DNA of 64,000 nt from Hoplostethus atlanticus (lineage: Eukaryota; Chordata; Actinopteri; Trachichthyiformes; Trachichthyidae). The position numbers and the translations under genes were made by a program. Below, piece by piece: positions 1 to 34,649 of the stretch. The stretch's first letter is position 1, and each line of letters begins with the position of its first letter. The stretch is taken from the NCBI GenBank assembly GCA_034670405.1, contig JAXDDX010000015.1, positions 5,982,001-6,046,000 of the forward strand, written 5' to 3'. The notes beneath the pieces were generated by a model. The model was not told the DNA's origin and did no database searches. It saw only the letters and a program-made list of their open reading frames with translations.

Positions 1-58
1 AGCCACGCCCCTCCGATCAAAGCTCGACTATCCCAGCATGCTAAGGCTCCGTGTGTAC

Positions 59-287
59 CTTCTATGAGAAAGGGCTTCTTGTCATTGATGTACATGAGGC
101 AGTAGGCGCTGGCATTGCGGTAGCCTCCGAATGAGTCCCTGACCAGCTCCTCCCAGGAGGACTTGGTGACAGAGATGTCGTTGTACTTCATCCAGCGCCG
201 ATGGTGCGGGTCGTAGATGTAAGCCCAGTAGTGCCCCGCGTTGGCCTGGCCTTCGTGGACCAGAACGGCATGAAGCCGGTATGGAAC
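59..287 (-). CDS. usp25: usp25 exon 16 (catalytic histidine box), last exon in window
   Basis: 229 nt encoding [20 protein letters not shown], then [20 protein letters not shown], ending [19 protein letters not shown]. It holds the USP His box; His604 and His612 correspond to human His599/607, together with the YNDI acidic residue. Acceptor tttccag|GTTCC, donor AGAAG|GTACAC at 59/58, phase 1 exit. The next exon is off the window. Confidence 0.96.
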
Positions 288-3200
288 CTGGAAACACAGG
301 CGGGACATGTTGAATGTTGAAAAATAAACAACAACAAAAGGGTATACTATAGCTGCGTACAGCCAAGACAGAACAGAGCTCCTCACCTGCATCATAGACT
401 TGTCAGAGTACATCAGGTCAATGGTTCTGTGGATTCTGGATACACTGCCCTGCAGATCTGGAGGGAAGACGACCATTACGAACCGTTAAGTGTCATGTTA
501 TCTGCTGCCCTCGTCATATCACAGAGTATGTTGTGGCCTCAAGGTAGCACAACAGTGTCAAACAAAGTCCTACCACGGGTGTCATTCTCCACCTCGCTCC
601 TCCAGCGATGCAGGCAGCCCTCGAGCACCCTCAGCTCTTCTTCGGTGATGTGGCGTGGGGCGGGGTGCATGGGGAGGTCGGGGGGCAGCCGGGACTGGGT
701 GAAGGGCTTGTGAATGGGTACTCTCTGCTGCTGGGCTGCGGTGGGGGCCGCGGCGGGGCCCTGGACCGGGGCCGAACTCTCTTGGGGAACTGAGCAGCCC
801 TGCTCGGCAGCGCTGCAGGATCAGAGACACGGAGCAGGACATCAAAAAAACACATTTTTAAGATCTAGTTTAATGTTCCAATACTGACCACTTAGCAACT
901 TGAAATTATGGTTCAACAATGAATCACAGCGGGCTCATGCTATTCAGGACTTGGGGCCAAGTGCTGTCAACTCAACCCATTCAGAAACTTCACAAACCCC
1001 GACCTGAAAAGCCATTTTCTAAAGAGGGCTCATATATCCTAGTGAACAAATGCTCTGTCCTTCACAAATAGTTTCACTTCACATTGTAAAGTGATTGAAT
1101 TCAAAGGACATCCCAGCCCATTAGTCCAAAAATCATTAGTCCTCCCTTCAACTACCTCCTGCTTTGTGACACAGACGACTGACACCATTTTACCCAGTGC
1201 TTGATAGTACATAAAAAAGGTACTAACAGTTATGGAATGGTCACCTTTGGGTGCTTTAGCTTTCTGGCTGCTCAGGATGTGGACAGTCATGCATTGTTTA
1301 TCCATGGCATGGCTAGCTTTTGTGCTGCAGGATGATTTTATGTCCCAGACGCACATGACTGTATAACTGTCGATTTAACTATTAATCACCCTGCTTTTGT
1401 TCAATTTAATCACTATCAACTGAATACAAAAGTTTTATCAAACATCTGTGGTCTTTCTAACTCTCCAAAATCACTGAACCAGGACCTCTCATGGTTTATT
1501 GATTCATTTTTCATCTCCTCCCAGTTATTTCCTAGTTCCTGAAACAAGTTGAGTTAGTGATGGGGGGGGGGAGGGGGGAGCAGTGAAAATGAAAAGGAGG
1601 TGGTGTCTGTTGCGCAACTTGCCTCTGCAGGGGCAGCTGTTGCCCTGTGGTGCCACCAGGGGGCGCTGATGTGTCAATGTCTTCCACAGGGGAGGTGCAC
1701 ACTGGCTTACTGGAAGCAAACTCCATGGCATACTGGAGGACATCTGCCAGAGGAAACCTCTTGGGGCCTGAGCCATAACTCAGATACCTGAGGGGGAGGG
1801 AGAGAGAGAGATAAAGGAGAGGGGGAATAACACCAAAAAAAGAGAGAGAAAGGGCAGGGTCAGCGTGAGAAATGACTCCCATGGCTGTATTAGAAAGCTT
1901 TATTGAAGTTAGCCAGCGTGTCGTACCTCTCCAGGCGCTGTTGGAGCAGCGTTAGATGCTCTTTCAGCCTCCTGATCTCCTCCCTCTTGATCCTGGTGAT
2001 ATCCCTGTTCCTGTCCATGTACCTGGCAACACACAGAGCTGGGGCTTCAGTCTTAAGGAGACTTGGAGGTTGAATGTTGTTTACAGCAGAGAGAAATACA
2101 TCATGATACCCTCTTCTAACTAAGATTTCCATCACCTGTCCATGTAGAGCATAGAGGGGAACTCCAGCTTGTTGTGGATCTTCTCAGGTCGCCCCAGTGC
2201 TTGGTTGAACTCAAATCTGGACAGTTCAAAGGTCAACACGGGAGGGAGTTCAGTGAACCAGTGCTGAAAGAAAATTGGATGTTGATAAAGATTAATTCAC
2301 TTAATTATATTAGAGTTTGTCAAAAACAACAAATGTCCCCTTTGTATCCCCTTTCTTCCAACGTTTCCAATGTCATTTGATAAGATTCTGTCCTGGGGAC
2401 CCCCTGGAACACTCTCAAGCACCCTACAATGAGAGCCACCGCTTTAGACGACCAAATCAGATTTGTTGTCGTTGTTGTTTTAGTGCTCATAATACAGGGT
2501 GAAGGGTGGAAGCCAGAGACATTACAATAACACTAGGGTAGGGTAGGGTTTGGCAATGTACCCCGATTTCTCCGACTTCCTGAATTCTGACGTCACTAAC
2601 AAGGAAATATATGTAGTCAAGTGCAGGGAATGATATATTCATCTCAAATAAAAATAAAAAAAATAAAAAAAATGTCATCACATAAGTCATTTTATTTCAT
2701 TTGTGGCTGAGGTTGCAGTGTTCGGTTTGCTGTATGTATGTTAAATGTGAAATAGCTGATCAGGAGGAACCAAAGTCAAGTCGCTCTGATGGTTATTCCT
2801 ATATGACTTGAGCGGAGCATCATCCCCTCCCTCCCTCTAGCTGGTAGCTGGGGCTCTTCCAGAGGGCTGGGTGCCATGCCCATCTGTGTAGTGGCCTGGT
2901 AATTAGCTGATCACAGCTACTGTGGGACAGCGTGGGCAGGGACACAGCTAACACAGAGGTCAAAGCCAGACTTACGGGGGGGTAACCGAGGGGTGGAGGG
3001 GGGTCAACCCTGTGGAGAGGATCCCCCACACCATCCCAAATTATTTAACCCCACTATCTTTTATTAAGTGCTGCTGGTAGTGGGGGACTGACAATTCATT
3101 TGTGGAAGTTTTAAGAATTGCATTTTTTTATTTGTCATTGAGATCTTTTCATCTTCGAATGAAAACATTAAATATGGACAAAATTAGCTGACATCAAAAA

Positions 3201-3355
3201 CCAATAACAATAACCCAATACTTTTTCCTCGTGGATGTGTTTTTGACATAATTATAGTCTAGGTTCAGGAAGCCTATTTACTCAACCCAGCTGATGGAAA
3301 CACACCTACACCGCATTTTATTTTTTTGAGACAAAAGTTGGATAGAAACATAGTT

Positions 3356-3386
<31 letters not shown>

Positions 3387-4639
3387 CACCCTGCGGTTGG
3401 CACTGACCTCCTGTCCAGACCTGGCAGAGTTTTCTGCTGAGTGCAGGGACTCGATCTCGCCTTCGATCATCGCTGCCTCAAGACACTCGTGGAGGTCCTT
3501 GAAGCCGTTCACCTGCAGGGGGTACTGCCCAAACATCTCCGTGTTCTCAAATTTCTTACCTGTGGAATGCGCGCACACACACACACAGTCATAATTGTTG
3601 ACTTCCTTGAAAGACTTTGACAACAAGCAGTGTGTGCCCTATTATGCAATCTACTCCTCCTCAGAGCCGAGAGAGAGAGCGAGAGAGAGAGAGAGCGAGA
3701 GAACAAACCATATGTATAGGCCCGGGGAGAAATGGGTCAGGCATGAGAGAAAGCGTCGGACAGGCAGAGCACTTTAGACAAAAAGCAATAGGAGCCATTT
3801 CACACTCGTTTGCATCCAAGCTGATTTTCACTAGTTCAGCAGTCGCTCACTCATCATGACCACTTTAACAGCAGCTCTCTGCATCAAGTACTGATGAGAA
3901 GTCAAAAAAAAAAAAAAGGGGGGGGGGGGGGGGGAGTTGTTAGCGGACATGCAGATGAGGCATTAAGGTCATTTTATGAGCAGAAGCGTCCGCTAGCCAG
4001 GCTTTCGGTGGCTCTGGGCCAGTATTGTCATGCATAATAAGTGCAATGTCAATCAGCCGTCAAGGTCCTCCACGATCAATGCGGCGGCCCTCTTCCTCTT
4101 TTACATGGGCCACATCTCATTAAAACAAGGTCACCTTTCATTACCGGGGGCAAGGACTCGCTTGCTTTCTGGCTGCTGCGTCGAGGCCATGCTAAGCCTT
4201 TATCTCTCTCTCTTTCTCTCTCTCTGTCTGTAGCTATCCCTCGCTTTCTCTCCTTCTTATTGGTTTGTGTTCGAACACCGTTCCACATCATCTCACCTTC
4301 CAGGACTCCCACGGCCAGGAAGCGTCCGTAGAAAAGCTCCACCATGGGGTTCTTTGGCTTCTCACCCTCCCTGACAAAAAAAAAACAAAAAAAAGGAGGT
4401 CGTCACGCAAACCACAGCTGTGTGAAGAGGGCATCTCCGCCTCAGAGCCGTGTGAATAATGCTCAATTCGTTCACCGCTTTGACCGTTGCTGCCCACTAC
4501 AAAACCACCATGCATATGTCTAGTTCTGATGTCCGTTCTCTCCGAGGTTACCTGTCCTCCTCTGCCTTCATCTGGAAGGCGTCCTCCAGCCAGTCCAGCA
4601 ACTTGTGGGTGAACTCGCTCACATCCTGCTGTTGGGAAA

Positions 4640-4708
<69 letters not shown>

Positions 4709-7700
4709 AGAGAAAGACATATAGATCACAGAGGCCACAGAGTCAAACTGCAGGATTAACTACGCCTAGGAGCAAGTACACTCAGTCAAATCTGTCACTT
4801 TGTTAATATAGACTGAGATTCGGATATGAGATGACTGGTCTTAGCGGTGGAGTTCGCCGAACGCAGACCTTCAAAGGGAACCTGCGGGCCCCGAGGCCAC
4901 TCTCTCATAGACATCAATGCCGCCCTGTAATTCAGGTCAATGCCCCTCCAACCTGACTAACACAGAGAGGAGAGACATGACTGATGAGTACAGCAGCCAG
5001 AGGGCTGACCTCAGTTAACCTGCACATAAGCTTAGTGGAATTCCTATTGGAGGAAAGGGGGGGGGGCAGTTTTTGGACATTTATGAACATTACATTACAG
5101 GGCATTAACATACACAGGTTGATTCCTGGTCGATATTGTGCTTTTTGCAGAGATCGGAGGGGGCGTTGTGGCTTTGGGGATTAACATTTATAGACAAGGG
5201 AGGTTAAGCGTCTCAGGATGGGAAGAGCTGAGTCAGTTGAACGATAATGGAATTGGAGGGTCAAGCCCTCAGCCAAAAGGACAAGACACAATAAAGGGGA
5301 AAAAAAGGTATTAAAGCTTTCAAGTGTATGCAAATGGAAAGCTATGATGCAGCGCTTGTTTTCCAAAGGATAAAGGATAAAGAGAGGACAGACCTGGTCA
5401 CGTAGGTGCGAGGGTGACGGTCCTCCTGATGGAAACATTCTATCTAACATCTATTTCTGTGAAGCGCGACTCAAACTTACTTTTACTGTGCATCATTTTA
5501 ATAGAGAAGGCTTGTTTTAGTTGACCAGTGGCTGCGCTACCAGCTGCAGCCCAGAAAAGGAACCGGCCAAACTCTTGACTGCCTGTAGTCCGTCAGTAAT
5601 ACTGTGGCAGTTTGGCTAACAACATGCACCGCAATGTTTTCTCGGCGTACTTCAGAAGCTGCTCCATACCTACTCCTCTGTTGATTTCATCCAGCTGTGA
5701 CTACATGTTGTACAACGAGGAGTTTAGATGAAAATCCACCTGTTTACATTGCACTTTTAATGGAGTCAATTTACAACTGTTCAAAAACAGGGACAGCCTA
5801 CATGTTTACAATTGGTAGGATTCATGTTCAAGGTGATGAAAATGTGTAGGCAGAAAAGTGTGAGATTTGTTTGGGTTTTTTTTTATTGGCAAAGAAACAA
5901 TATTTTCTATGAAGGAATTGCATATTTGGCATATGTCTGAAACCTAATGTGATCCATGTTGTGTCTCATCAATGATGCAGTCCACCTACGGGCCAATCAG
6001 CAACAAATATGTCCCCTTGACCCCCTTGGGCTAGTCAGTGTAATTTTGAAAACAGCAGAATGTAACTGGGAGGATTTATTCAACTGCCTAGCAGGTCATA
6101 GATGACAGAGGCTTACCTGCTGAGACTCGCTGGACTTGAAGGCATCTTTGAGGATCTCCACGGCGCGTGATGGATCCACGTACTTCCTCTTGGAGCCCAC
6201 CATGAGAGAGAAGAGGTTCCTCAGCTCCTGCATGAAGGGCAGGTTCCTGTGCTCCTGGTTGGAGAAACACAAAACAGCTCCAGCACAACTACTTGGTATA
6301 AATGACTAAAAACACATTTGGTCCTGCTTGTGCTGATCGATCTATCGGCTCTCTATTTATCCAAGAGGGACATTCAATTGTCACAGCAGAACCAAATAAA
6401 CACAAAACACTACAATAAAAAAAAAATTGAAATTTTATACAATCACCCACCTCATGACAATTAACACTGTCTTTAACACACACGCCTTTTTCAATAGAAT
6501 TTATTTTTCTATGCTTAAATAATGGCAACGTTTGCTGATGTTAGAATAAAATAGATATGAGATGAGAACGAGGATATATGGAAAAGTCACAACACTCCAT
6601 ACTGAGATTGTTAATGCTGCATGAAAAGTGCATGAAAAGAAAACACTTTCTGTGTGGTTTTTGTTTTTCTGTGCTAGTGAGTCAGGGATGCTGATGTCGA
6701 GATTAACACCTAAGCCCTAGCAGGCTCCCACTGTTGGAAGCAAAAGGTCAGTGATTAAGACTGAGATCAGGAGATGACTGCCCCGAGCCATGCAGCCACG
6801 GCAGAGGCTTAGACCAGATTAGTGACAGGATGCTAACCCTATGGCGAGCTCTCTGTCGGGAAAGGAGGGGGAAAATGCCGCTTTGAGAACTACGGTGCCA
6901 GAGTAGCATGGACAGCAACTAGGCCAAGCTAAGCAGCTCAGAGCTGCCGAAAACCCCTGCAGCAATTGAAACACACTCTCTCTCTGCATGTGTATGTGTG
7001 CGTGCTGGTGGAGAATAATCAAGGCTCCATCAAACATTTCACACCACACTCTTCATGGCTTGGCTTGCAAGCAGTTAATTAAGTGGACTGTCAGGGGGGG
7101 AAACGGTACGCTGCTGTGACTTAAGGGCAAGATCACACAGCTGCTGAATGGTGCCATAACATCCTACATGGATTTCATCCTGGTGGCTCACAGCACTCTT
7201 TAGAGAGTCAAGCCTTCGGGGCTAAAACCCAGCTAGCCGTGGTAGGCTAGCTGTTATGCAGTAAACTAGGCAGATGTGAGGTCACATATACAGGGGATCG
7301 AATGAACTAGCGTTATGAGACCACGCTTTGACTGCTGTGAGATCGCTATTGACATTTCCTCCCCCTCTGTTGGAGGCCTGATGGGACAGTGTCTCACCTT
7401 CTGGTTGCGAGGCAGGTCCTGGACCCTGGCCGGGGGAGAGTAGTGGAGCACCAGCCTCTGGAACTCCAGCAGGTTGAACAGAGACTGTGGGTGGGATGGG
7501 GTGGAGGAGTGGAGGGGCATAGACGAGTTAGGATCATCTCATGTTAAGGCAGCATTAGCCCACATGCATGTCAACATCTTTTATGGAAAAGAGCATCAAA
7601 CATACATACCTCATTGAACATGATTTGAGATTTACGAATTGTTAGGATCCACTCTTCAATTCTGCCCACATCCAATTGAGCACTTGGATGGAGCAAAAAT

Positions 7701-10700
7701 GTCAACTTTTAGCATTGACTCATGCTGCTCACCGCCCACAAGGATGATATTGGTGAAAGAGGATTGGGGGAATAACAAGTAAACCAATTCTAAAAATGTT
7801 GGATTCAGACTACAGCTTTTTTAGAGTGTCCTAGTGCTTGTCTTACGTTGACTTTTATGGTCACAGTGCTGTTAATTTCCCTGTTGTATGTGAAAGCGAA
7901 CAAATAACAGTAAAAAAAAAAAATAGTTTCGTAAGAGGCCTGAGTCTCTCAAGGTTTGGACATCCATGTGGGAAAAGAGAGAGTTGTTTACTCCTTTTTT
8001 ATCACCTGCTTTCAGTAAATCTAGCAGAGAGGTCAAGCTCGGGCTGTGTCCTTAAGGGTGGGAGTTACATTACACACAGGAGCCAGGCACCATGTGACGG
8101 TGTATCCAATGTTCATCTGGCATATTTCAGCTCAGTTCACATTCTGCCACTGGCTGCACACGGATACGAGGAACTAATGCCAACTAACTGATCTTTTTGT
8201 GTGACGGCCGGGCTAAAATGTTTCTGCATACCAGCTGAAGTCAGAATGAGGGTTTTCATTTGACGTTTACATTTAAAATCTTAGTCACTTGGATTATGCT
8301 CTTATCCAGAGCAATGTAGGATGACTGCAACAATAGAACAAGCTTCAACTCCTGGATCACCAATATCACAAGCAACCAAAAAATGGATGCAATAAAGAAT
8401 GCAAAAGTCAGGGCCTTAGTGGACGTGTAATACTCCTGTGGACTACTGAAGGATCATGTAAGAGCAACGTGCTAGGAAAAGAAATAGTACACGAGCCAAG
8501 AAGACAAACAGAAGGGATTATTTAGAGTGCAATTTGAGATGAGTCGAGAGGGGATAACATTCAGAATAAAGGCTCTATTATAAATTTCATGAGATCCCTT
8601 TCACTTAGTCCTACAGTGTGTGAGAGTGAGTGTATATGTGTGTGTATGTGTTCACCTGAATGACAGCACTGAACCAGCAGGTATTGCCAACATTCTTCAG
8701 CCCCACGGGGCAGTTGTCCATCCTCTTCCTGTCATGGGGGTTTGGCGAATCGCTCCATACTTCTGTGTGGGTGCGCTTCAGACTCGCCTTGTTCTCCGCT
8801 ATGCTGGCCTCCAGGACTCTACAGAGACAAGCAAATCCAAACAAAGGCAATGAATATCGCTTCCACCAAATGATACTCCAATGCCTAACTAAAGACCGAG
8901 GCTGACATTTTCCTCCTAAAGCACACAAATGCCAGATTGTGGCTCCTTAGTGTTGCATTTCAGTTTGGTCACACTGCACTTGACTTACCAGTTCTGCTTT
9001 AAAATATAAGGCTTTTATTCTCAGTTATCAGTGCATGACCCCAACCTGCTACAACAATGATTTCGAGATAGCTGGACATTTGCCAACGCGTTGGACAAAA
9101 TGGTGGATTTCTGAGAAGAATGGTGGGAAAACAAGACTCGATAATAAGGTCAAGTAACAGATTCACAGTACTCACATTACTGGCTCTGATTGTTCAGCCT
9201 GCGCTAAAACTAACTGGTCGAGACCTTCCCTTTCTAGTAAAGACACATTTTAGTTTCTATCAAAAGTAAAGCTGTTGTGAGAAATGTTGTTTATACACAG
9301 TTTCTTCTAATAGGCAGATATGATTTGCTGTTTTGAATGATTGCTGTGTGGCAACCGTGTGCCATTTGCTTTGACCTAGTTTAAGATGCCAACAACAAGA
9401 GTGGGTCAACTCTTTTTTATTATAGACTAATAATTTATAAATGTAGATTTATTCAAGACTTCATTTCCCAGGTACTTGACATCAGGAGACGATGTAGATG
9501 GGAAATCTGGGGATTTTGGTCCCTGGTATGAATCCCCAGTGCAAACCAAGGATTGGTGTCAACTGTTTATTTTCCTTTTTTTGGTCAGAAGTTGCATTTT
9601 GAATTTCCTGGTGTACTCGTTATGGCTGGTGGTGTTGAGCCCACCTGCTGATGGCCTGCTCCTCATCGGTGATGCCTGTCTCCCTGAAAGCCCGGTTGGA
9701 CTCCTCCAGGCTGAGGGCAATGGCCCTCTGCAAGTCATCCTTGTCGTCCCCAGTCAGGTCAATCACATCTGCAACACAATGCCCTCAGTTCACATGTGCT
9801 TCACTGGTTACATGCACATATACTCAAAAGTATTGAGTTCATGACTAGTTGATGTAAACACCATAATCCATTAAGAATGACCCCAATAAGCTCTTATGCC
9901 GGTTAAGAGAAACCTGGATAACCTGGATAACCGGGATATTCCCATATTATCCAGGATACTGGTGCATATGAGGCACTATGTGGAATACTTTGTGCAATGT
10001 AAACACAGCAGACAGAAAGAGTTGAGGTCAGGAAAAAAAGTGTCTTTTAAATACCACTTAAGTATCATGCAGAATGGAAGATGGGTCTATTTCTGAAATC
10101 GGTGCGAACAGGACTGAGTGAACATGATCTTCCCACGTTGAAGTGGTGCCCTCATGCCTACTCACTAGTGTCTGCCTGGCTGCCCACGCTGATGTATCTG
10201 TCGTTAGCCACCTGAGAGGTCTGGTAGTAGGTGGCCTCATCTTGCTGAGGGACCTTGGCATTCTTCTCCGTCAGGAAGGCCACGGCCTCCGCCAGGTCGC
10301 CATTGCTCACCTGCAGCACCAAATGGTACAGGTAAGAAAAGGGGGAAGCACGTGTGAACTGTAAGAATGGTTCACAATTTATATTCTAGGTATTCTAAGT
10401 CTCAGCTAGTGTTTCTGCACAATGCTTATAGTTGGTTACATGTTGGTTGGATAACAACATAGGAAATGGGTTTGCATACAAAAACTCAACTTAGGGATCC
10501 TTACTGACCGGATTTGGAGACTGGGCAATACTCCTAGGCTAAGTTACTCTATCTCTATATTCTAGTTGAATATTATTCTGTGAACTGACAGTGTGTCCAA
10601 AATTGCATAAAAGGTGTGGTCATCATAAGTATATCAGACATGAACGAAAATGAGCATTTCATCGCTCCTCTCTCACCTGATCTTTCCTGTCTCTCTACTG

Positions 10701-30472: not shown

Positions 30473-33205
30473 CTATTTAGATGATTGGCTCAGTCCCTGG
30501 CTCTCGTGGCTGTGCTTGTCGTTATGGGTCGGTGATTGCGGGGTGGAGCTCAGTCTGTGTTCATAGGCATGCACATCGCTGATTGGCTCCTCCTTAACTC
30601 GAACCGCAGGCTGGGTCCCCTGATCCCTCACCTCCTGCCTCAGCTGAGTGCTACCCTTCTGCAACATATAGTACAGAATGGGGTTGGAGCGTGTCAGCCG
30701 TGGAGAGTCTGGGTTGGATTCACAGCCCCCCTCCTCCTCCTCCTCCTGCTGCCCAGTCCATCGCACCGGGCTCTCTGGCTCCTGTTTGACCAAAGTCGGG
30801 GGGTCCCGTTTTTGAGTGGCCGGCCACGGGGCTGGGTGGCGGCCCCAGGGGGCGCGGAGGGGGCCGTCACCTGCCGGAGGGGCGGGCAGGGGTCTGAGAT
30901 TATTGGGGAGCCCTGAGCTGAGGGAGCCGTGGGGGTGCCAGGGCAGATGGAGGAAGCTGTGATTGTGGGCCGGCTGACTGAGAACGCTGCCGTTGGCCTT
31001 GCCGTTGGCCTGCAGGACGGAGGGGCTGGGTGGCCCCCGGTGCTGCTGGGACAGCTCCTTCAGGCAGTTGTCAGACAGCAGCAGCTGCTTGAGCACATTG
31101 AAGCCCCGACTCTCTCTGGTAAGGGGTTCGCTTGGGGGGCTCCTGGGCGGAGCCACCTCCTCCTTGGGACTCCTCTGCTGGTCATGCGCTTCCTGAAGAG
31201 CCAATGAGGCGAGGCTGTTGCTGTCTCGACTGTCCACTGCCCTCGGAGAGTTGACGCTGTTCAGGCTCTCCGTTCGGTCAGAGCAGAGGCGTCTCTTCTT
31301 GGGGCTGGGGCTCGGGTACTCCCTCTGCTCCTCTTTAACCTGTCTGGGCTGCGTCTCGGCCTGCACAGCAGCACTGGTGTAGTAGGTAGCAGTCTGTTGT
31401 TTTAGCAGCTGGCTGAGGAGGCCGTATTTTGCTATGACCTCTGCGGGCCGTGGCTCTGTTTTAAAGTCCTGCTGAGGCGCTGAGAGGGGGCTGTTCTTGT
31501 CGTAGCCACTCCGTCTCTTTCTGCCACTCAAATCCTCAGACGTGGCCAAGGACGGCCCCGTCTCCTCCACGTGCTCCGTTTTGACCTTTACATCCAAAGG
31601 GGGCCCATTGGAGCTGTCACAAATGACAGAGGTGCCAGGGCTCCTCTCAAAGCACCTCCCCGCTGCCTCCGCGCTCCTCCTACCGCTCCCGGCAAGCCTG
31701 TCTTTGTGGTTGCCGACAGCGGTGGCCGAGCCTGTTCCTAGCAGGAGCTGCAGCACTGTGCGCCTCTCCAGAAGGTTCTCAATCTGGGAGGAAGGGGGCG
31801 AGGCCTCCTTCCGGCTGAAAGGCGTGCCACTTCCAGAGGGCCCGTCGGAGAGCGGAGTGGTGGTGTTCCTGTGGATGGGTGCGTTGAGCCTCTCCAACAG
31901 CGCCAAGGGCCTGCCCGCATCCAGCTCCTGGCCCGGCGCCTTGCTGGAGGGGATGGGCGGGGAGGGCGTGCCACACTGGGCCAGGTTCTGTAACAGTTTG
32001 CTGGCACTGAAGGCAGGCTCAGACGCCTTCTCAGCAGGGAAGGCTTTAGACTTACACAAATCCAGCGGGCTGGACTGATCGTGGGGGGAGGGGTAGGAGT
32101 ATGGGGACTGTGCGCTGCTGGGGTCTCGACTGAGGGAGTAGAGGGGCTGGGCTGGCGGTCCGGGCCTGTCCATGGGGCTCTTTGTCCTGGTCTCGTCCCA
32201 GGGCATCGGCCCCTTTGGTGGTCCCCGGGACATAGTGGCCATGGTTATGTCAAGTGGCAAATCTGGAGTAGCTACACTTTTGTTTACCTTCTCATTATTT
32301 CTGCGCTCGAGAAGGAGCTGCATGAGCGTGAGCTTAGGATGGGATTTCAGGTCTGGGCTCATTTCAAGCTCCTTGCCCTTAGAGACCTTCGACCCAGATG
32401 GCTCTGGTTTCCACTTGTTTATCAATGACTCAGTCAGTTTGTCCAAGGAGGAGGTAGAGAAGGAGGATGAGGAAGAGGAGGAAAATGCAGTGGAAACAGA
32501 GGAGACAGCAGTAGAGGAGGGAGAAAAGGCTGTGGCAGAGGGCTGAGCAGAAGAGGGAGGGGAGAAAGCAACTGGGGTACAGGAAAACACTGGGGTAGAG
32601 GAAGAGAAGGTGGAGGAGGAGTAGGAAGAGGAGGAGGAGGCTTTGGGCCCAGTGTCTGGGGCATTGGCCCGGCTCCTCATGGAGAGGTCAATGGGAGAGC
32701 AGCTTGAGTAGGAACTCTCTGCATCACTGCTGTCCTTGGCCAGGCTCCTCTCCTGTGTGGAGCACTCGCTGTCCGAGGTGACGGAAGAGGAGCCGCTCGG
32801 CGGCAGGACGCCACAGCTGTCCTCTAGGTGCCCATTCTTAGTCAGCTGCTTCTGGTTGTTGTGGTTGTTGAGGAGCAGCAGGAGCAAGCTGCTGCAGGTC
32901 TGGGGGGGGCGAGTTGGACGTGAGTCAAAGCCTCGCTTCTCCCTAGGCGGCTGGTTCTGGGTGTGGCTCGGGGCACGTGGAGGAGGGGGAGGAGGGGGAG
33001 GAGAGCTCTGGCTGTGGCCACACAGCAGGGAGGGGCTCCCTGGGCTGGACAGGGCCATTCGGGGGAGTGTTGTTGTTCCTGTGGTTGTAGTTGTCATCCC
33101 GTTTTGGGTGGTTAAGGAGCTTAGTGTGTCTGAGGCTCCAGGCAGAGAATCTCCCACACTGGGTGGCCTTTTGTCCTGACCCAGCTGCTGGGTTGCCATA
33201 GCGGC
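30473..33205 (-). CDS. nrip1: nrip1 3' reading-frame segment (central and C-terminal domains)
   Basis: 910 codons beginning AAMATQQLGQDKRP and ending LSQSSK, stop at 30473-30475. It has no internal stop or further shift. It holds a proline run (SPPPPPPPPR), a long serine-rich block (about codons 217-280 of the open frame counted from 33286), six receptor-box positions including the C-terminal LYYML, two CtBP-type motifs and five SUMO-consensus sites (VKTE, FKTE, VKEE, VKQE, VKEE). SASKLLQNLAQCG, IENLLERRTVLQLLLG, FNVLKQLLLS and NPILYYMLQKG match human. The serine-rich block has no obvious human counterpart. Confidence 0.94.
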   Translation of the reverse strand, partial: AAMATQQLGQDKRPPSVGDSLPGASDTLSSLTTQNGMTTTTTGTTTLPRMALSSPGSPSLLCGHSQSSPPPPPPPPRAPSHTQNQPPREKRGFDSRPTRPPQTCSSLLLLLLNNHNNQKQLTKNGHLEDSCGVLPPSGSSSVTSDSECSTQERSLAKDSSDAESSYSSCSPIDLSMRSRANAPDTGPKASSSSSYSSSTFSSSTPVFSCTPVAFSPPSSAQPSATAFSPSSTAVSSVSTAFSSSSSSSFSTSSLDKLTESLINKWKPEPSGSKVSKGKELEMSPDLKSHPKLTLMQLLLERRNNEKVNKSVATPDLPLDITMATMSRGPPKGPMPWDETRTKSPMDRPGPPAQPLYSLSRDPSSAQSPYSYPSPHDQSSPLDLCKSKAFPAEKASEPAFSASKLLQNLAQCGTPSPPIPSSKAPGQELDAGRPLALLERLNAPIHRNTTTPLSDGPSGSGTPFSRKEASPPSSQIENLLERRTVLQLLLGTGSATAVGNHKDRLAGSGRRSAEAAGRCFERSPGTSVICDSSNGPPLDVKVKTEHVEETGPSLATSEDLSGRKRRSGYDKNSPLSAPQQDFKTEPRPAEVIAKYGLLSQLLKQQTATYYTSAAVQAETQPRQVKEEQREYPSPSPKKRRLCSDRTESLNSVNSPRAVDSRDSNSLASLALQEAHDQQRSPKEEVAPPRSPPSEPLTRESRGFNVLKQLLLSDNCLKELSQQHRGPPSPSVLQANGKANGSVLSQPAHNHSFLHLPWHPHGSLSSGLPNNLRPLPAPPAGDGPLRAPWGRHPAPWPATQKRDPPTLVKQEPESPVRWTGQQEEEEEGGCESNPDSPRLTRSNPILYYMLQKGSTQLRQEVRDQGTQPAVRVKEEPISDVHAYEHRLSSTPQSPTHNDKHSHESQGLSQSSK

Positions 33206-34100
33206 GAAGTCGCTCGCTGGCGGAGCGTCCGGAGAGCTGGGCTTTGAGTGCATGCTCCCGGGAGTACTGCTGGAGGTGTGCTTCACTGGACAGCAGCAGG
33301 GCCAGCTGACTGCAGGCCACGCTGGGCTTGGGTGAGGGCGCTGGGCTGGAGCGGATCTTGACCATGTTGGCCACCGCCTTCAGACGCTCTGCGCAGGACA
33401 CTGAATCAGCAGCTGCCGGGGCGGAGGGAGGCGTGGCACTGTGAGCTGAGCGAGGCGATTCTGGAGGTCTGTCCTGGCTGTGTCCCCGGCGGCTGTAAGG
33501 CGTGTTGCTGTGATTCTGCAGTTTGCTCTTCCTCATCAGGCCTTTCAAGCGACTGGAGGCCGTCCCGTACACAGGAAGTGGCTCTTTGTCTGCAGATGGG
33601 GCCTTAGGTGGAGGGGAGCACTCGCTGGGGGGCTTGTTGGACTGCTGGGACATAGCCACGCTCTGCAACCGTGAGCTGAAGGACTGGAGCAGGGAGGCCA
33701 GTAGTGTGCTCTCCCCGGCATGAGGAGAGCCCTCTAGCGCTCCATTCTGCATGGCGCCCCCTTGGCCATTCAGCTCCACTGGGGGTGAACTCAACCGCTG
33801 GTTCCCCGGTTCATTCCAGGCTCCGGAGCGGAGCAGGCGGGCCTTCTTCAGGTGCTGCGAGACACCCAGAGAGGGCCCGTTGGTTCCAGCCTTGGGAGCT
33901 GTAGGGCCATGGTGGTTGGGCAGCTGGAAGGGCCCACCCGCCTTGTCGGCCTGCTCCTGGTTGCTGTGGGCGGCCTCTGACCTCCTGCTCGCTGTGGCCC
34001 CAGGCCCGGCCACCACTGGATGCATCAGTAAACCTTCCAGATAAGTTAGAACAGCTGAATCCTTGTGTGTCTCAGGGCCAGGCTCCTCCCCATGAGTCAT
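30473..34100 (-). CDS. nrip1: nrip1 (RIP140), nuclear receptor corepressor; single coding exon interrupted by a one-base frame shift
   Basis: Nuclear cofactor that binds agonist-bound nuclear receptors through LxxLL boxes and represses by recruiting CtBP and HDACs; in vertebrates it controls metabolic and ovarian genes. As in other vertebrates the whole reading frame is in one exon. The start MTHGEEPGPETHKDSAVLTY is nearly identical to human. Two open segments, 34100-33207 (298 codons) and 33205-30473 (910 codons plus stop), are in different frames and meet exactly inside the conserved ASERLAAMA motif; human NRIP1 has 1158 residues. Numbering through the junction, receptor boxes are LEGLL 21, LASLL 134, LKGLM 185 (degenerate), LALLL 266, LLLLL about 405, LMQLL 592, LQLLL 783, LSQLL 895, LKQLL 1003 and LYYML 1142; CtBP-type motifs are PIDLS 469 and PLDLC 678. 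It is not determined which teleost duplicate (a or b) this is. Confidence 0.95.
33206..33206 (-). other. nrip1: nrip1 frame-disrupting extra base
   Basis: One base (C on the coding strand) separates CTT (33209-33207, Leu) from GCC (33205-33203, Ala). Human continuity ASERLAAMA needs the two codons adjacent. It is not in a homopolymer; the local sequence is GACTTCGCCGC. Confidence 0.85.
33207..34100 (-). CDS. nrip1: nrip1 5' reading-frame segment (N-terminal repression domain)
   Basis: 298 codons from the ATG at 34100 to the Leu of ASERL. The downstream of two possible starts is chosen because MTHGEE is the vertebrate N-terminus. An in-frame ATG at 34151 lies on the intron side of the predicted acceptor. 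It holds four receptor-box positions, the SPAPSPKPSVACSQLALLLS block and AHLQQYSREHALK, all matching human closely. Read without correction, this frame continues 87 unrelated codons (RRYGNPAAG and on) to a stop at 32943-32945, which would give a truncated 385-residue protein. Confidence 0.93.

Positions 34101-34561: not shown

Positions 34562-34649
<88 letters not shown>
34562..34649. repeat. (GA)44 microsatellite upstream of the nrip1 coding exon
   Basis: The longest pure dinucleotide run in the window, about 430 nt upstream of the nrip1 acceptor. CT in the transcript sense. Confidence 0.95.

Follow-up and report, generated by a model that had tools for sequence, protein, structure and literature searches.

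A surplus base in the nrip1 reading frame of Hoplostethus atlanticus, probably a consensus error within an intact gene

The window, that is, the whole stretch of 64,000 nucleotides analysed here, carries on its minus strand an nrip1 gene whose coding sequence is divided by a single base into two open reading frames. From comparison of sequences we consider the break most likely (probability roughly 0.75) to be an insertion error in the consensus, arising in sequencing or assembly, inside an intact and functional gene. We infer that the surplus base is absent from the DNA of the animal itself. The features concerned are:

33207..34100, minus strand: nrip1 coding frame A, codons 1-298 (MTHGEE...ASERL); its PF15687 match ends exactly at residue 298
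30473..33205, minus strand: nrip1 coding frame B, 910 codons (AAMATQQLG...QSSK) plus stop; PF15688 and PF15690 matches
33206..33208, minus strand: candidate surplus base, any one of C 33206, T 33207 or T 33208, from a single-base deletion scan
32943..33206, minus strand: literal continuation of frame A, 87 codons without a profile match, then TAG (32945-32943)
3..10385, minus strand: exons of the neighbouring gene USP25, serving as an intact-frame control; 14 exon pieces match PDB 5o71_A

Coding frames of nrip1

Frame A opens at the ATG at 34100 and runs for 298 codons up to ASERL at 33207, while frame B, one base out of phase, extends for 910 codons from 33205 to 30476 and is closed by a stop at 30475-30473. 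Joined, they specify a protein of 1208 amino acids with no internal stop; read literally, the gene yields a 385-residue product composed of the 298 codons of frame A and 87 more past the break. The alternative frames are full of stops (26 and 34 in the two other frames over the frame B region, 909 codons each, and 11 and 5 over the 297 codons of the frame A region), and open frames of such length are thus not due to chance. The first-pass annotation, which had described a 298-codon and a 910-codon NRIP1 frame offset by one base, is borne out in this respect, both being present on the minus strand with Pfam matches. It had also considered long-standing decay unlikely because the rest of the frame is intact, and indeed we found no second lesion over the 1208 codons and reject a long-standing pseudogene on this ground. 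No further shift at the C-terminus was recognised by eye in the two other frames from 30900 to approximately 30000, nor were local repeats found around the break within 33100-33300. A short intron over the break is likewise rejected, since the profile match continues across the joint and an intron of 3n+1 bases, if longer than a single base, would delete conserved residues.

The methionine of AAMATQQLG (33199, minus strand) lies directly after the break in what we take to be a start-like context, GCCGCTATGG. Internal initiation at this codon would yield a C-terminal product of 908 residues.

Identity of the gene and its neighbourhood

Three of the NRIP1 repression domain families are matched well above their cut-off of 27 bits: PF15687 (NRIP1_repr_1; domain 1) at 337.8 bits, PF15688 (domain 2) at 371.3 and PF15690 (domain 4) at 88.3. 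For PF15689 (domain 3) no match was listed up to E 10, although the HMMER filters drop most matches above E ~0.1 and weak ones may have been lost in this way. The PF15690 match reaches no further than profile position 265-266 of 313, leaving the last 47 positions unmatched. This copy of nrip1 may therefore lack repression domain 3 as well as the C-terminus usual for the protein.

The joined protein carries LxxLL boxes at residues 21, 134, 266, 405/406, 592, 783, 895 and 1003, together with PIDLS at residue 469 and PLDLC at 678, both of them downstream of the break and presumably motifs of the CtBP-binding type. We take NRIP1 to be defined by several LxxLL boxes together with PIDLS. Upstream of the break there are three canonical boxes (residues 21, 134 and 266) and LKGLM at 185. 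By the usual numbering of the boxes, the apparent third receptor box is this LKGLM (33546-33548 onward, minus strand) and not an LxxLL. The first-pass annotation had placed the truncation after the fourth receptor box, which holds if LKGLM is counted; in terms of canonical LxxLL motifs only three precede the break.

USP25 and NRIP1 are neighbours in other vertebrates, and in the window the USP25 exons lie on the same strand as nrip1, as one would expect of an NRIP1 orthologue. A PDB search with a 968-residue frame returned nothing up to E 10 and a scan of viral_contigs found no relative.

Placement of the joint

Frame A alone matches PF15687 from position 1 to 271 of 305, the match ending at residue 298 (337.8 bits); the joined reading extends this to positions 1-303 and 358.3 bits, a gain of 20.5 bits. 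The placement of the joint was tested by PF15687 scoring of six pieces, namely five joins and the unjoined frame. ASERLAAMA gave the best score of the five joins (224.7 bits), with ASERFAAMA (222.8) and ASERLRAMA (221.4) only 2-3 bits behind; remoter joins scored 211.5 (after RRYG) and 201.7 (an early join, QLPDAPPASDF). The unjoined piece scored 198.9, its match in this comparison ending one residue later, at profile position 272 of 305. On these scores ASERL/AAMA is the best joint of those tried. The 87 codons by which frame A continues past the break have no PF15687 match.

Codon-position GC and codon usage do not clearly show a switch of frame at 33206. GC by codon position changes phase not there but near 32975, and swings back over approximately 32675-32376. 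The codon-usage likelihood places frame B ahead by 7 bits over 33205-33110 and frame A ahead by 10 bits over 33109-32948, which leaves frame A ahead by 3 bits over 33205-32948 as a whole. The sequence here has low complexity, with many Thr, Pro and Ser codons. The Pfam match covers it only to approximately 33104, and none is present over approximately 33103-32783. Over that part we read frame B on grounds of continuity, homology being present to either side in this frame and frame A ending at its TAG.

A scan of single-base deletions at 120 positions (33266-33147) showed that removal of 33206, 33207 or 33208 produces the identical joined peptide, ASERLAAMA. The joint at ASERL/AAMATQQLG proposed in the first-pass annotation is confirmed; its C 33206 is one candidate among three for the base to be ignored, T 33207 or T 33208 giving the same protein. 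Leucine could originally have been encoded here by CTT, with the C surplus, or by CTC, with a T surplus. We favour a surplus T at 33207/33208, as a preference and not as proof, because nrip1 uses CTC more often than CTT (31 vs 9, the break site being counted among the 9) and because a T read as TT is a duplication, which a surplus C would not be.

Origin of the surplus base

An error of the consensus would have consisted of the insertion of one base, the likeliest case being that a leucine codon CTC at 33206-33209 had its T read as TT. Several observations argue for it. The one-nucleotide lesion stands alone, neither a stop nor a further shift having been found across 1208 codons; protein similarity crosses the joint from PF15687 position 271 to 303; the ASERL/AAMA join scores best of the five tried; and the event can be a simple duplication. 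Against it, the break does not lie in a long homopolymer; the six runs of at least six C or G elsewhere in the nrip1 coding sequence are all in frame. Nor is the local error rate obviously high, since approximately 600 USP25 codons in the window are free of frame breaks. The 14 USP25 exon pieces align in order to residues 42-493 and 515-666 of 5o71_A with no break inside any of them; they were cut by hand, so that frames were tested within pieces only and residues 494-514 were left out. If the break is such an error it is a matter of annotation only, and nrip1 in this fish ought not to be called truncated or a pseudogene.

The main rival, which we consider unlikely though well worth keeping in mind, is that the base belongs to a real and recent truncating allele; this would be heterozygous or have become fixed lately, and might affect one of two copies of the gene. 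Its product would comprise the first 298 residues and 87 foreign ones, keeping three LxxLL boxes and losing PIDLS, PLDLC and the later boxes. The NRIP1 coding sequence lies in the last exon; if this is so here, nonsense-mediated decay would probably not remove the message. As it stands, the sequence has a clean frameshift of one base, and a young allele would agree with the absence of any second lesion. On the assumption of neutral decay, this absence bounds the age of the allele at approximately 0.5-0.8% neutral divergence (95%), the two values being obtained with the indel:substitution ratio taken as 0.15 and 0.08, respectively, with a transition bias also assumed and stop-making changes amounting to 2.8% of substitutions. 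Yet, per individual, truncating alleles generally hit fewer genes than consensus indels do in unpolished long-read assemblies, which speaks against such an allele.

Truncating frameshifts of NRIP1 do exist in people. PMC8430632 describes c.2184delA (RIP-MSI), heterozygous and dominant negative in colorectal tumours, and refers to a family with urinary-tract anomalies that carries a truncating mutation in heterozygous form. The truncations reported in that paper are, however, harmful or dominant, which again weighs against a truncating allele here. Were the allele real, a vertebrate would carry a natural knockout or dominant-negative form of this corepressor, which could serve in studying how nuclear receptors signal and how duplicate genes are lost.

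It is very improbable that the break is bridged by programmed or tolerated +1 ribosomal frameshifting, in which the peptidyl-tRNA-Leu would slip from CUU onto UUC, with translation continuing in the next frame. CUU is the P-site codon of known shift sites, occupying this position at the +1 sites of Ty1/ABP140 (CUU_AGG_C), EST3 and bacterial RF2 (CUU_U) (PMC5009743, PMC12661321). In animal mitochondria, moreover, there are single-base inserts corrected by +1 shifting, including those of most birds and some turtles (PMC5009743). The A-site codon at the break, by contrast, is CGC, neither a stop nor rare in the gene, where it is used 14 times elsewhere, and the zero frame continues for 87 codons rather than stopping at the site. 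CTT followed by C also stands in frame at four other places in nrip1 without a break.

A stimulatory RNA structure is common, although not universal, at +1 sites. In pseudoknot-free models the folding here is unremarkable (z -1.14, 29 of 200 shuffles being at least as stable), and for the 70 nucleotides downstream, taken at five offsets, 265-361 of the 1183 windows along nrip1 were at least as stable. On its coding strand the 3.6-kb stretch lacks both CTTAGGC and TCCTGA, and a search of the open-licence literature for NRIP1 with "programmed ribosomal frameshifting" found nothing. A tolerated site CUU-C-GCC in a nuclear vertebrate gene, giving from one message both the 1208-residue protein and a 385-residue short corepressor, which would be devoid of the PIDLS and PLDLC motifs, is to our minds scarcely credible. 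It would bear on vertebrate recoding only if the site is conserved.

The first-pass annotation had put an error or a single recent lesion ahead and a programmed shift last, as the least likely option. The ordinary A-site codon, the lack of a stop at the site and the unremarkable folding uphold this order. Its remark that the codons are ordinary is true of CGC but not of CUU, given the standing of the latter at known +1 sites.

Other features of the window

An 88-base GA dinucleotide array is located at 34562-34649, approximately 460 bases upstream of the ATG of nrip1. By a simple scan the window holds 25 arrays of at least 20 bases, one of them a plain A run. On the plus strand, 12790-12855 matches the tRNA family of Rfam (RF00005, 39.1 bits, cut-off 29) and may be a tRNA gene or a SINE derived from one. 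Pfam gave no match up to E 0.001 for four further long frames of the window (4 of the 15 listed).

Comparison with known systems

The gene resembles the nuclear receptor corepressor NRIP1 (RIP140) in its Pfam repression domains 1, 2 and 4, its LxxLL boxes, its PIDLS motif and its neighbour USP25. It differs in the surplus base after codon 298, in having no domain-3 match, in the LKGLM box at 185 and in the last 47 unmatched positions of PF15690.

With the Ty1/ABP140 and RF2 sites (PMC5009743, PMC12661321) the break has in common CUU in the P site; unlike them it has in the A site CGC, which is not a stop and, from its use in this gene, probably not slow, and no zero-frame stop nearby. RIP-MSI c.2184delA (PMC8430632) is likewise a one-base frameshift in the NRIP1 coding exon leading to a C-terminally truncated protein, but it is a deletion which loses the last 431 residues, whereas here a base is inserted after residue 298. 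To the consensus-indel frameshift errors of vertebrate assemblies (PMC8081667) the likeness is that of a lone short indel breaking an otherwise intact coding frame.
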